Positions 1,555-25,497 of a stretch of 52,081 nucleotides of DNA are shown here, one piece after another (the first letter of the stretch is position 1; each line of letters starts with the position of its first letter). The notes below the pieces were generated by a model. The model made no database searches. It saw nothing but the letters and a program-made list of their open reading frames with translations, and had not been told where the DNA came from. This DNA is from Thermoflexales bacterium (lineage in GTDB: Bacteria > Chloroflexota > Anaerolineae > B4-G1 > DUEL01), in NCBI GenBank assembly GCA_014360895.1, contig JACIWQ010000007.1, positions 1-52,081 on the forward strand. Direction: 5' to 3'. The position numbers were made by a program, and so were the translations under genes.

Positions 1555-3747
1555 ATGCGCGCCCGGTGGATGCTCACCCTGGCCCTTGTTCTGACAGTCG
1601 CGGCATTGCCGAAGGGAGTCGCCGGCGATACCGGGCCGGTCACCCCGCTCCCGCCGGTGACCGCCACCGACGGCTTCGCCGGAACCTGCTACTCTTTCTA
1701 CCCCGATCCCTACGGCCAGGTTCCCGGCCGCCCTTTCCTCCCCCTGATGCTGGCCGCCGGCTCCCGCTGGGACCGCTTTGATTTCTCCTGGCTCCAACTG
1801 GAGCCCAGGGAGGGACAATGGAACTTTGTAGCTCAGGACCAACTGGTGAGCGACCTGCGCGCTGCCGGGATGAACATCCTGGGCATCCTCCTCTGGACAC
1901 CGAACTGGGCAGCTACCGGGAACTGCACCCCCCTCCCTGAATCGCTCCGACTGGACCTGCGGCCTGACCGGTGGCCCGCATCGGCTTTTCGCCAGATGGC
2001 CACCCCGATGAACAACGACCGTCCCCTCTGCATCACCACCCCGCCCCGGGGCCTCTACGAAGAGTGGAACGACTGGACGACCGCCGACGGCGACCCCGTC
2101 AATACCTGGGGCCGTTTCGTCTACACCGTCGCCTATCGCTATCGGGATTCGGTCAAATATTGGGAAGTCTGGAATGAGCCGGACCTTCACTGGTTCTGGA
2201 GCGGGACTTCCACCGACTATGCCCAACTCCTCAAAGTGGCCTACCGGGCGGTGAAGGCCGCCTGCCCGGATTGCCGGGTCCTCTTCGGCGGCATCGCGTA
2301 CTATGAGAAACCCGATTTCTATCGCTGGGTACTGAACCGGTTAAAGAGCGACCCGGATGCGCCCACCTACAACTACTTCTTTGACGCGATGGCGATTCAC
2401 CTTTACCATCGCTCTTCCAGCATCTATGACGTCACTCAATCTATCCGCAACGGCATGCGGGAGTTCGTCCCCGACCGCCCCATCTGGCTCACGGAGACCG
2501 GCTCGCCGGTCTGGGACGATTCGTCCGTCATCAGCCCCACCGTCCCCTACACCTGGTCCGCCCGGATGGACGAGGCGGCGGCCTACGTCCTCCAGTCCTA
2601 CGCCAACGCGCGGGCGGCCGGGATTGAGCGCTACATCTTCTTCCGCGCCCACGACGACTACTGCGACAAGAACCGGGACGGCGATTGCGCCGATGAGGGG
2701 ATTGACTACGGCATGGGCGAACTCTTCGGCCTGGTCCGGGACGACCGGAGCCTGCGCCCGGCCTACGTCGCCTTTCAGGTTGCCACAACCTACCTGGTCT
2801 CGCCGACGATGGTCACCAGCGTCAACTACTCCGACGGAGTGCGGCGGGTGACCTTCTGGGGGACACCCCGGGGGAAAATCAGCGTCCTCTGGAACACCGT
2901 CCCCACGGCGACGCTCTTCTCTTACCCGGAGACCTTGCCTGCCGCCACACTGGTGGACCAGCGGGGCGTCACTCGCACCATCACGGCGACGAACAAAGCG
3001 TACTCCCTCTTCCTTCCCGGCGCGACAGCCAACAATGGCGGCGGGGTGGGGACCTCTGACTACATCATCGGCGGGGAGCCGTACCTGGTGATAGAGACGG
3101 ATACCATCCCGCCCACCGCGACCGTCCGCTCTGTGACGGTCTCCCTGCCCCCCACGGTCACCGTCTCCTGGGATGGGGCGGACGACGCGGCGGGCATCTG
3201 GCTCTACGACGTGCAGGTCCGGGAGGGAGCGGGAGCCTGGACGAACTGGCTGACGATGACCCCCACAACCAGCAGTGCTTACGTGGTCCCCCGGACGGGC
3301 ACCTGGTGTTTCCGGGCGCGGGCGTGGGACCGGGCGGGGAATCGGGGGGACTGGTCGCCGGAACTCTGCGCGGCGGTCACCCTGACGCGCACCGTCCACC
3401 TGACAGTGGATGGAGTCTTCGGGGATGAGGACGGGGACGGGGCACGAGGCCCGGATGAGCCGACCATCACGGCAACGATGCGTTTGCTGAGCCCGGCGGG
3501 GGTGGATGTTGTCTCCCCCACGATGGGGACGTCGTGGGAGTTCACCGCGACCCTGCCGGTGGGGATATACACCCTGGAGGCGACGCCGGAGAGCTGGCCC
3601 TCCCCGCCGCCGGGGTGGCTACCCCGCCGGATGCCGGTGGAGGTCTATTCGGGGGTGGAGCCTCAGGAGGTCTTCCTGACCATCGGCCTGCGGCCCCATC
3701 GGGCCAGCGTGTATTTGCCAATAGTTCGGAGGGGCGTTGGTGCATAA
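1555..3747 (+). CDS. Exported clan-A-like glycoside hydrolase with C-terminal beta domains
   Basis: A 730-residue secreted protein with an N-terminal signal peptide (MRARWMLTLALVLTVAALP). The catalytic part looks like a (beta/alpha)8 barrel of glycoside hydrolase clan A, nearest in feel to GH39/GH5-type enzymes: WEVWNEPDLHWF holds the presumed acid/base Glu208, and IWLTETGSP the presumed nucleophile Glu314. Fibronectin-III-like and calcium-loop-like modules follow (DEDGDGARGPDEP near residues 622-634). The substrate cannot be read from sequence. GAGAAGAGG precedes the ATG. The natural C-terminus was probably ...YLPIVRR at residue 726; a MITE inserted in the last codons adds GVGA before a new TAA. 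Confidence 0.75.
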   Translation: MRARWMLTLALVLTVAALPKGVAGDTGPVTPLPPVTATDGFAGTCYSFYPDPYGQVPGRPFLPLMLAAGSRWDRFDFSWLQLEPREGQWNFVAQDQLVSDLRAAGMNILGILLWTPNWAATGNCTPLPESLRLDLRPDRWPASAFRQMATPMNNDRPLCITTPPRGLYEEWNDWTTADGDPVNTWGRFVYTVAYRYRDSVKYWEVWNEPDLHWFWSGTSTDYAQLLKVAYRAVKAACPDCRVLFGGIAYYEKPDFYRWVLNRLKSDPDAPTYNYFFDAMAIHLYHRSSSIYDVTQSIRNGMREFVPDRPIWLTETGSPVWDDSSVISPTVPYTWSARMDEAAAYVLQSYANARAAGIERYIFFRAHDDYCDKNRDGDCADEGIDYGMGELFGLVRDDRSLRPAYVAFQVATTYLVSPTMVTSVNYSDGVRRVTFWGTPRGKISVLWNTVPTATLFSYPETLPAATLVDQRGVTRTITATNKAYSLFLPGATANNGGGVGTSDYIIGGEPYLVIETDTIPPTATVRSVTVSLPPTVTVSWDGADDAAGIWLYDVQVREGAGAWTNWLTMTPTTSSAYVVPRTGTWCFRARAWDRAGNRGDWSPELCAAVTLTRTVHLTVDGVFGDEDGDGARGPDEPTITATMRLLSPAGVDVVSPTMGTSWEFTATLPVGIYTLEATPESWPSPPPGWLPRRMPVEVYSGVEPQEVFLTIGLRPHRASVYLPIVRRGVGA

Positions 3748-3881
3748 ATACTTCCTCGCCCCACATCACCAGCATTTTGTGGGTATTTGCGGTGTTTTTG
3801 CCCCACTTTTGGGCAAAAAACGACCGTTTTTAGGGATGGCATCTTCGCAAACCCGATTTATGCACCAAAGCCGTTCGGAGG
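3724..3881. mobile_element. 140-bp IS903/IS5-like MITE with 9-bp target duplication
   Basis: Direct copies of GTTCGGAGG lie at 3724-3732 and 3873-3881. Between them, 3733-3749 (GGCGTTGGTGCATAAAT) is inverted at 3856-3872 with one mismatch in 17. The right end, read inward, is GGCTTTGGTGCATAAATC, which matches the IS903 terminal repeat as I remember it at 16 of 18 bases; IS903-group elements make 9-bp duplications. The interior of about 106 bases has no gene, so the element is non-autonomous. It sits in the last codons of the glycoside hydrolase gene. Confidence 0.85.
3795..3819. repeat. Inverted repeat inside the MITE
   Basis: TTTTTGCCC and GGGCAAAAA flank a 7-base loop, a 9-bp stem. The T run is on the 5' side and the A run on the 3' side, the reverse of an intrinsic terminator. 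It is probably a structural part of the element. Confidence 0.5.
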
Positions 3882-4011
3882 TAGATATCTTAGGGCATTC
3901 CGACAATTTGTTTAATGGTGCGGCGTGGCGTGCCGATTGGAAACCACTTCGCTTCGTGGCGGCTGCAAGCGTTTTGCGGAGATGTCAAAATAGATTCGCC
4001 TCAATATGAGG

Positions 4012-6132
4012 TTACTCTTTTATTGAAGCCCTTGCTTTTTGCTCTTGTATCACTTTTTCTAATAGTTTTATTTCTGGCGTATGGGGGCTTTGGTAGGAGA
4101 GGTAGAGCCGCTCGCGAGCGCGAGTCATACCCACGTACAGCCAACGGCTCCGCTTGATGGTTTTCTCCTCCCGTTCTTCTTCTGAATCTTCGCTCTTGGA
4201 AACCGGGGGCAATGCTTGCAACTGGCATATAAAGACGACCTTAAACTCTAATCCCCTGACTCTTTCAAGTGTTGTTACATTCAATCTGTCTTGCACAAAG
4301 CGTGCCACATCTTCGTCCGATGGGTCCGGGGTATGCATCTCAAAGCCTCTGCTAAGAAAGAAGTTGCAAGCTTTATCTACGCCCGCTTTGGTAGGCAATA
4401 AGATAGCTATATCGTGCGGGTTGTAATGCCGGAGCAGACCTTTTATTTCACGCTCAGCTTGTCGCAATTCCTCGTCGAGAGAGTTGAATTGCCGGAGAAC
4501 CGGCCAGGGACCGTGTCGCATTTTCTCCGGAATAATTTCTGGTTTCAATAGAATCTCTCCTTCTCGCTCAAGTTGTTTCAGTAACGCTTCATTCTGACAC
4601 GCAAATTCGTAGGCTGTGACAAATATCTCGTATGTGTTCCGATATGGCCGTTTCAGAATTTGTGAACGTCCTACGACGTTAAAGCCTATATCTCGCCATG
4701 TAAAACTCCCAAAAACTCGCTGAGCTGGATCAGCGGTCATAAAGAAGTTATTCCTTGAGATATGTTGGATTACTCTAAACCAGGCCGGTGCGAAGTCCTG
4801 AGCTTCATCTACAAGTACGGCGTCAAAAATCTCCCCCGGAAGTTCTCCACAGAGAATGGCTCTTTGTAGAAGTATCGCGTGATCGTGATAATCATAACAC
4901 TGCCTCATACCGTTCAAAATGGCCTGGTACCGTTGGAACAGTTTGAATACAGCCTTACGCTGATTTATCGTTAATCCTACCCTGCGCCCCGTACGTTCGG
5001 CGTTCAGGTAAGTCTCGCACTCAATTTGCAGCGTCTCCGGACTAAGAGGTAGCGTGTCTTTGATCCACTCTATCTCTTCAGCCAGGTAATCTGGTCGGAG
5101 ATTGGACAGTTCTGGCAAGTCCAGTTGTTCCAGTGCCTTTCTTACGATACCCTCCAGGGATCCCTTGTGTTCCTTCTCATCTACGAATATCGGGTTAGCC
5201 AACCTTTCCTGCAGCATGTATCGGGCAAAAGCATGCCAGTGCCATACTTGGACCTTGGGTTGTAAGGGACTCAGTCTTTTTCTCAAGTGATTAGCTAACA
5301 AATAGTTCCGGGTAAGTACAAGGATGTTCCACTCAGGATGTATCTGATGCAAATAGTATGCCCGAAGTCCCAGTACGAACGTTTTTCCACTCCCTGCGAC
5401 CCCACGGACGAGGCGCAACCGATATGTTTCCGCTGCGTGTTTTCCCTCTTCGGAAACTTCCTGTATCATCTCTTCATAAATTCCACGAAGCGCTGCCTCT
5501 TGTTGTTCGGGGTCAGCCACACTTAATTCCTCACCATCATCAATTATCACTGTTTCTTGGTGCAGGACCGCCTGTATCGCTTTCATCTGACGATCGTTTA
5601 ATCCCTGGAATCCAGGTCGCTGATATGCTATTTTTTTTAATTGCTCCAGTAGTTTGGCGGAATTCTCCAAATGGTTGCTTGCAATCACGCAAGGTCGGTC
5701 GTGGTAACGTACCAATGCGGAGTGCAGTTGGAGATGCCGCTCTGATAAGTGGGTAAAAACTACAGCGTATGACCAGGGCACCATCAAGTTGCCCTGCTGA
5801 TCCCGGAGTTCTTGCCTCTTTTTTAGCTCATCTGCTTTCCTTTGCGCCTTTTGCTCAATTTCCCGGACAGGGTTGGGTGCGGAGAACTTTGTGCCATCCC
5901 TCCTTTTGACTTCAATCTGATGAACATCGGATCTGGTAATTTCACTATAGTCTTTCACTTCCAGAAAGAACAACCCCAATTGTGGGTGAAGCAGCACAAA
6001 GTCCTGGGAACTATCTCCGGTTGGGAGCTCTGCCCATCCCAAAAATTCGTCAGGTAAATTCCGCAGTAAATTGTAAAAGCGGTTTTCGCCATGAGTTGGT
6101 TTTTCTCTTAGCGAGCCTATAATCCGTGCCAT
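4012..6132 (-). CDS. NERD-domain UvrD/Rep-type helicase
   Basis: A 706-residue protein joining an N-terminal NERD (nuclease-related) domain to a superfamily-1 helicase. The NERD part shows Asp44 and Glu58-Val-Lys60 (FFLEVKDY), fitting a PD-(D/E)xK core. The helicase has Walker A GVAGSGKT at 244-251, Walker B VLVDEAQD, and motif VI VGMTRARERLYL near the C-terminus. Such proteins process DNA; some NERD-helicases belong to phage-defence loci, but I see no partner gene here. Base composition and codon use are clearly more AT-rich than the flanks, which suggests transfer. AAGGAGG precedes the ATG. A MITE lies beyond its 3' end and an inverted repeat beyond its 5' end. Confidence 0.85.
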   Translation of the reverse strand: MARIIGSLREKPTHGENRFYNLLRNLPDEFLGWAELPTGDSSQDFVLLHPQLGLFFLEVKDYSEITRSDVHQIEVKRRDGTKFSAPNPVREIEQKAQRKADELKKRQELRDQQGNLMVPWSYAVVFTHLSERHLQLHSALVRYHDRPCVIASNHLENSAKLLEQLKKIAYQRPGFQGLNDRQMKAIQAVLHQETVIIDDGEELSVADPEQQEAALRGIYEEMIQEVSEEGKHAAETYRLRLVRGVAGSGKTFVLGLRAYYLHQIHPEWNILVLTRNYLLANHLRKRLSPLQPKVQVWHWHAFARYMLQERLANPIFVDEKEHKGSLEGIVRKALEQLDLPELSNLRPDYLAEEIEWIKDTLPLSPETLQIECETYLNAERTGRRVGLTINQRKAVFKLFQRYQAILNGMRQCYDYHDHAILLQRAILCGELPGEIFDAVLVDEAQDFAPAWFRVIQHISRNNFFMTADPAQRVFGSFTWRDIGFNVVGRSQILKRPYRNTYEIFVTAYEFACQNEALLKQLEREGEILLKPEIIPEKMRHGPWPVLRQFNSLDEELRQAEREIKGLLRHYNPHDIAILLPTKAGVDKACNFFLSRGFEMHTPDPSDEDVARFVQDRLNVTTLERVRGLEFKVVFICQLQALPPVSKSEDSEEEREEKTIKRSRWLYVGMTRARERLYLSYQSPHTPEIKLLEKVIQEQKARASIKE

Positions 6133-23477: not shown

Positions 23478-25433
23478 CTAATGACCGCGCAGGACGAGGG
23501 GCAGGTAGACCGAATATTCCAAGGTCTTGAATACACCGCTGCCCAGTGTTCCAGCGTAAAGGACGGAATGTTCCCCGGGAGCAAGGGCCAGAGCCAGTAC
23601 CCAGAGATTGGTCAGACCGGTGTTCAACGGGCTCCAGTTTGTGCCACCATCCGTGCTTTTAAAAACACCGCTACCCCCTGTCCCAGCATAAATGGTGTTT
23701 GGGTTCTGGGAGTCTATTGCCAGAGCACAGACCCACTGATTGTCTAACCCAATCTGGCTCCAGTTTGTGCCGCTGTTCGTGCTCTTGAAAACACCGTCGT
23801 ATGTCCCCGCGTAGAGGATGGACGGAGTTTGCGGATTCATTACCAGGGTCTGAATATAAAAATCGGTCAGGCCAGAGTTGATCTGACTCCAATTCTCCCC
23901 GCCGTCCGTACTTTTGAAGACGCCGCTGCCGTTTGTCCCGGCATAGAGGGTGTCGGGGTTATCCGGGTCTATAATCAGGGCGTTAATGTAGCTACTGTAC
24001 GACAGGCCATTGCTGGCCGCGCTCCAGTTTGTGCCGCTATCCGTGCTTTTGAAGACCCCGCCACCGTATGTCCCGGCATAGAGGATGGATGGGTTTTGGG
24101 GGTCTATTGCCAGTGCCCAGGTGGGGGTATAGGTCAACCCATTGTTGATCGCACTCCAGGACGAACCGCCATTTGTGCTTTTGAATACACCGCCATATGT
24201 CCCGGCATAGAGGGTATCGGGGTTATGTGGGTCTATTGCCAGAGCCGAAACCTGGAAATCGGTTAGGCCGGTGTTAGCTGCACTCCAGTTCGCACCGCCG
24301 TCTGTGCTTTTGAAGATGCCACCGCCACCTGTCCCAACGTAGAGGGTACCGGAGTTATGGGGGGGAATTACCAGGGCATGAGGAATGGAAGCAATCAAGC
24401 CGCTGTTAGCCGGGCTCCAGTTCGTGCCGCTATCCGTGCTCTTGAACGCGCCCCTGCCGTTCGTCCCCGCGTAGAGAGTGTTCGGGTGTTGCGGGTCTAT
24501 TGCCAATGTGTTGATATTGGTCGGGCTATTGTTGACGAAGGTCCAGTTTGCACCGCCATCTGTGCTCAGGAACACGCCGCCGTTACGTGTCCCAGCATAT
24601 ACTGTGCTCGGATTCTGCGGGTCAATCGCCAGGGCCAGAACCACGAGGTCCGTCAGACCGTTGTTGACCTCTCTCCAGTTCTCGCCACCATCTGTGCTCT
24701 TGAATACCCCGTTACCACCTGTCCCAGCGTAGAGCGTGCCCGAATTCTGCGGGTCTACCACCAGGGCCCGAATGCCCATCGTGGTTAACCCTGAGCCAAC
24801 CGCACTCCAGGAGGAACCGCCGTCCGTGCTTTTGAATACACTGCTGGCAGCGCCAGCATAGATGGTGGACGGATTTTTGGGGTCAATTGCCAGGGACTGA
24901 ACGAAGGGATCGTTCAGGCCGTTGTTGACTGCGCTCCAGCTTGCGCCGCCGTTCGTACTCTTGAACACCCCATTACCATTTGTCCCTGCGTAGATGGTAC
25001 TGGAATTTTGGGGGTTTATCACCAAAGCGCGAACATAGACAAAGGTGGTGCCTATACCGTAGTTGATAGGACTCCAATTCACACCACCGTTTGTGCTTTT
25101 GAACACGCCGCCGCCCCCTGTCCCGGCGTAAATGGTGGACGGGTTTTTCGGGTCAATCGCCAGAGCTGGAACCCAGGTGTTCGTCAGACCGGTGTTGACC
25201 GCGCTCCATGACGAACCGCCATTTGTGGTTTTGAAAATACCCCCACCCGCTGTTCCGGCATAGATGACATTGGGGTTCTGTGGTTCTATCGCCAGGACGT
25301 AAATGCTTCCGCCCTCCGGGCCAATGTTGGTCCAAATGCCGGCTCCAGCAAAGGTGGTACTTGTCCCACCGACGCTCAGCAGAAACACCAGGACGATGAG
25401 CAGGACTCTCCTGAAGGTAGTTGTGCGTTTCAT
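23478..25433 (-). CDS. Exported Asp-box (BNR/YCF48-like) beta-propeller protein
   Basis: A 651-residue secreted protein with a signal peptide (RRVLLIVLVFLLSVGG) and about 14 repeats of some 46 residues. Each repeat has IDPQNPxTIYAGT followed by GVFKSTDGGxNWS; I count 14 YxGT strands and 13 Asp-boxes (SxDxGxxW). This predicts one or two propellers of the sortilin/BNR type, with no catalytic residues evident, so binding or adhesion is likelier than hydrolysis. It ends SVYLPLVLRGH, a motif shared by other exported proteins here. GGAGG precedes ATG 25433; an upstream in-frame start is less likely. GC is somewhat lower than its neighbours. Confidence 0.85.
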   Translation of the reverse strand: MKRTTTFRRVLLIVLVFLLSVGGTSTTFAGAGIWTNIGPEGGSIYVLAIEPQNPNVIYAGTAGGGIFKTTNGGSSWSAVNTGLTNTWVPALAIDPKNPSTIYAGTGGGGVFKSTNGGVNWSPINYGIGTTFVYVRALVINPQNSSTIYAGTNGNGVFKSTNGGASWSAVNNGLNDPFVQSLAIDPKNPSTIYAGAASSVFKSTDGGSSWSAVGSGLTTMGIRALVVDPQNSGTLYAGTGGNGVFKSTDGGENWREVNNGLTDLVVLALAIDPQNPSTVYAGTRNGGVFLSTDGGANWTFVNNSPTNINTLAIDPQHPNTLYAGTNGRGAFKSTDSGTNWSPANSGLIASIPHALVIPPHNSGTLYVGTGGGGIFKSTDGGANWSAANTGLTDFQVSALAIDPHNPDTLYAGTYGGVFKSTNGGSSWSAINNGLTYTPTWALAIDPQNPSILYAGTYGGGVFKSTDSGTNWSAASNGLSYSSYINALIIDPDNPDTLYAGTNGSGVFKSTDGGENWSQINSGLTDFYIQTLVMNPQTPSILYAGTYDGVFKSTNSGTNWSQIGLDNQWVCALAIDSQNPNTIYAGTGGSGVFKSTDGGTNWSPLNTGLTNLWVLALALAPGEHSVLYAGTLGSGVFKTLEYSVYLPLVLRGH

Positions 25434-25497
25434 TGTGAACCTCCTTCCAAGTGGATGATCGTTGTGCATCTGAAAAGAGGAATTCACAATGTTCTCG

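Follow-up and report, generated by a model that had tools for sequence, protein, structure and literature searches.

An IS903-type miniature element in the final codons of a gene for a secreted glycosidase-like protein in a Thermoflexales bacterium

We report that a 140-bp element in the window (the whole 52,081-nucleotide stretch analysed here, contig C230 in a draft genome of 3.57 Mb and 262 contigs) is almost certainly a non-autonomous element with IS903-type ends, i.e. a MITE, that was inserted in trans by an IS5-family transposase at the last codons of its host gene. Before the insertion the gene ended YLPIVRR-TAG and it now ends YLPIVRR-GVGA-TAA. The features are as follows.

1555-3747, + strand: host gene for a 730-residue secreted glycosidase-like protein, now ending YLPIVRR-GVGA (open frame; sub-threshold PF01229 and PF02449 matches; orthologues)
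3724-3732, + strand: left copy of the 9-bp target duplication GTTCGGAGG, the codons Val-Arg-Arg
3733-3872, + strand: MITE, 140 bp (multi-copy in the genome; 9-bp duplications)
3733-3749, + strand: left terminal inverted repeat GGCGTTGGTGCATAAAT (16/17 match to the right end)
3745-3747, + strand: new stop TAA, from the MITE (read from the sequence)
3795-3819, + strand: hairpin inside the element, TTTTTGCCC-7 nt-GGGCAAAAA (read from the sequence)
3856-3872, - strand: right terminal inverted repeat, read on this strand as GGCTTTGGTGCATAAAT (16/17 match to the left end)
3873-3881, + strand: right copy of the 9-bp target duplication GTTCGGAGG
3882-3884, + strand: old stop TAG, now untranslated (at the same point as the TAG in the G001 orthologue)

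The preliminary description of an element with 17-bp ends and a 9-bp duplication at 3724-3881 was confirmed to the base: the ends GGCGTTGGTGCATAAAT and ATTTATGCACCAAAGCC are identical at 16 of 17 positions and the flanking GTTCGGAGG copies are perfect (9/9). A transposase gene would not fit into 140 bp, and none is listed among the frames of the element; what is seen is a short unit with terminal inverted repeats and no transposase gene. Its subterminal bases are ACTTCCTCGCCCCAC and CGGGTTTGCGAAGATGCC, and a Rfam search of the window gave no match. The host frame reads ...SVYLPIVRR, to which the element adds GVGA and TAA. With the element and one copy of the duplication removed, the rejoined flanks read ...ASVYLPIVRR-TAG, with GTTCGGAGGTAG as the predicted pre-insertion site. 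The name "hydrolase" earlier given to the gene should be read with care, since it rests on GH39/GH42 matches (PF01229, PF02449) that are just under the Pfam cut-offs.

Orthologues of the host gene are present in five same-genus genomes (73-83% identity) and the insert is absent from all five. The G001 orthologue ends ...RASVYLPMVRR-TAG, and its DNA, GTGCGGAGGTAG, has one mismatch relative to the joined flanks; the similarity continues to the stop and vanishes beyond it. This empty site, which comes from another species (83% protein identity) and not from another strain, is direct evidence of a past insertion, and together with the joined flanks it bears out the earlier proposal that the insertion exchanged the old stop for four added residues. 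The G005 orthologue ends FLPLVCR-TAG, and those of G002, G004 and G006 carry four extra residues past the YLP motif (the three tails being GAAP, GFAP and WGAP). These tails superficially resemble GVGA, as would be expected if the segment were the ancestral 3' end of the gene and the flanking 9-mers a chance repeat; they come, however, from unrelated DNA and end in TAG, while the 140 bp are found in no orthologue and recur at other sites of the genome, where the duplications differ. We consider that reading to have a negligible probability, as the empty site, together with the further copies, has refuted it. With three of five orthologues naturally having extra residues, a short tail at the end of the host protein looks tolerated, and the four residues added by the insertion are probably near neutral.

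Searching the genome with the 158-bp segment gave eight places, which correspond to about six copies of the element including that in the window. C12 and C204 carry complete copies of 141 bp (94-95% identical), both with perfect 9-bp duplications, TTCTGGGAG and CCAGGGGAT, respectively. The end of C228 holds the left part and the start of C20 the right part of a copy; since each is flanked by CATAGAAGG they most likely represent one copy broken by the assembly, with an overlap that differs at a few bases. Only right-hand parts are present on C255 and C231 (two fragments), and the eighth place, on C90, is an IS end only. Hence four copies have both ends, one of them pieced together from two contig ends, and they have four different perfect 9-bp duplications. 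This recurrence at independent sites, with a different perfect duplication at each two-ended copy, shows that the element is not a product of chance; the MITE is thus present at several sites with a target duplication at each. Beyond this genome, an order-wide search of 48 genomes detected related fragments in the same genus only, and among GTDB genome contigs there was a match in one Thermoflexus MAG only, where the copy is a decayed relative also found as G001. Viral contigs searched for the left-end pattern gave no match.

The C12 copy (G000:C12, 1020-1509) is situated between a T-box leader (Rfam RF00230, 69 bits, E 8.6e-15, under the gathering score) and the start of an aminotransferase-like gene, that is, within a regulated leader; the gene that follows resembles a branched-chain aminotransferase as judged by eye.

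A transposase-bearing element with matching ends was identified in the same genome, at C185:22871-24009, so that other copies and a related transposase, two of the things the preliminary description had proposed to look for, are present. This insertion sequence is 1139 bp long, has a 9-bp duplication (GGTCTACGC) and contains one open DDE frame of 343 residues (DDE_Tnp_1), which matches PF01609 and PF13737 and scores 306.5 bits against the NCBIfam model for IS5-family transposases (NF033579; cut-off 140). The predicted transposase is approximately 40% identical to IS903B transposases in plasmids over 90% of the query, and in the alignment the motifs around both D residues and the E are kept. 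As yardstick for the IS903 end we used GGCTTTGTTGAATAAATC, read from an annotated IS903B copy; two IS903B records with short flanks were taken, and one with a predicted virulence gene in its flank was left aside. The right end of the MITE matches this end at 16 of 18 positions, in agreement with the preliminary description, and the left end at 14 of 18; for the IS ends the values are 15/18 and 16/18. The partner IS combines an IS5-family DDE transposase close to that of IS903 with a 9-bp duplication and IS903-type terminal repeats. Members of the IS903 group are ~1050 bp long with 9-bp duplications and ends of about 15-27 bp (PMC3281130). The present system is like the group in its transposase identity, its ends, which start GGCTTTG.TG.ATAAAT, and its duplications, and unlike it in the Chloroflexota host, the length of the partner IS and the lack of a transposase in the window element.

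The terminal repeat is also present at further places in the genome. On C1 the IS is truncated and contains an internal stop, on C3 it is interrupted by an assembly gap but flanked by the duplication GCCCACCGG, and C205 and C7 each carry one end of a single copy, as indicated by their common ACGGGCACG. The same-genus genome G002 has an IS copy with intact ends and the duplication CTTTCCAAT, and eight transposase matches in all. Many contigs stop inside an IS or MITE (the ends of C7, C20, C88, C90, C118, C205, C219, C228 and C255), and two contig pairs, C205/C7 and C228/C20, can be joined by their matching 9-bp duplications.

The shared ends and duplication length suggest that the MITE was mobilised by the C185 transposase or by one closely related to it. 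In the proposed course of events an IS5-family transposase would act in trans on the non-autonomous element with its IS903-type ends, and a 9-bp staggered cut would be made across the final three sense codons in the secreted glycosidase-like gene, with GTTCGGAGG becoming duplicated on repair. From the left end of the element four codons (GVGA) are read in the host frame before TAA is reached, so that the whole protein is kept with four residues added and the old TAG is left untranslated.

In favour of the MITE having arisen from the resident 1139-bp IS by simple internal deletion are the 17-bp ends and 9-bp duplications that the two have in common. The genome also contains a 112-bp locus (C251 of G000, 484-595) that is made up of 76 bases from the left and 45 from the right end of the IS, with no visible duplication, and that is a true internal-deletion derivative and a second miniature type. 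The interior of the MITE, in contrast, is not shared with the resident IS: its similarity to the C185 and G002 IS copies is no better than that of shuffled sequence, and we regard such an origin as unlikely. Because the MITE shares the ends only, the resident IS is the likely mobiliser and not a demonstrated parent. The designation "IS903-like MITE" accordingly holds for ends, copies and partner transposase, with the refinement that the interior is not common with the IS found. No IS with subterminal bases like those of the MITE was found. At its right end, a G006 IS shows 88% identity to the MITE over the last 33 bases. This is a hint of a parent IS that is related but not the same, although terminal repeat makes up about half or more of the matching stretch. 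That the 140-bp family would instead be an unrelated hairpin sequence with acquired IS903-type ends, transcribed at gene ends and leaders where the hairpin affects expression, appears highly improbable.

We also considered a regulatory reason for retention of the element, namely an action of its transcribed hairpin on stability or termination at the mRNA 3' end. The RNA fold z-score of the whole element is about -5 (-5.2), and in other bacteria RNase III can act on the hairpins of MITEs (PMC2229807). The strong fold, however, is largely due to the inverted repeats and would be expected by construction of any such element, and the MITE copies are not placed alike with respect to genes; overall, we find a regulatory role quite improbable, and insertion in trans remains our preferred reading. 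The internal hairpin was rejected as a terminator: no terminator-like site was scored inside the element, and the hairpin stem is rich in T in its 5' arm and in A in its 3' arm.

Insertion of MITEs at gene 3' ends has already been described in Coxiella burnetii, where QMITE1 and QMITE2 overlap the final bases of functional genes and slightly alter the C-terminus, which was remarked to be tolerant of change (PMC5896051). The window element resembles these in lying over a gene 3' end with a small C-terminal change, whereas QMITE1/QMITE2 are reported as a different, unrelated MITE family and overlap by 1-50 bp, compared to four codons and a stop here. In-frame fusions of small inverted-repeat elements to genes, such as the Rickettsia palindromic elements and intragenic ERIC, have been reviewed (PMC10969869, PMC2229807); those give longer in-frame peptides, unlike the stop after four codons in our case. 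In the literature covered, with most subscription journals outside it, we found no MITE description for Thermoflexus or Chloroflexota. The window element is a clean but ordinary example that opens no new principle. It provides a fully worked case (ends, duplication, partner transposase and empty site) for an IS903-type MITE in Chloroflexota, and its changed stop codon and hardly altered protein make clear why insertions of this kind are tolerated at the 3' ends of genes.

Downstream of the MITE, the convergent gene at 4012-6132 (- strand) encodes a NERD-domain UvrD-like helicase, a pairing that occurs in some defence-related proteins. Finally, the pattern [YFW]LP[LIVM]..R ends the host protein (3710-3747), its orthologues and another long, apparently secreted protein of the window (23478-25487; e.g. 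SVYLPLVLRGH), and it may serve these Chloroflexota as a C-terminal signal for sorting or anchoring. With a loose YLPxVxR pattern over ~400 kb, 4 of 266 ORFs have such a C-terminus vs 0.7% internally, an enrichment that is not convincing.
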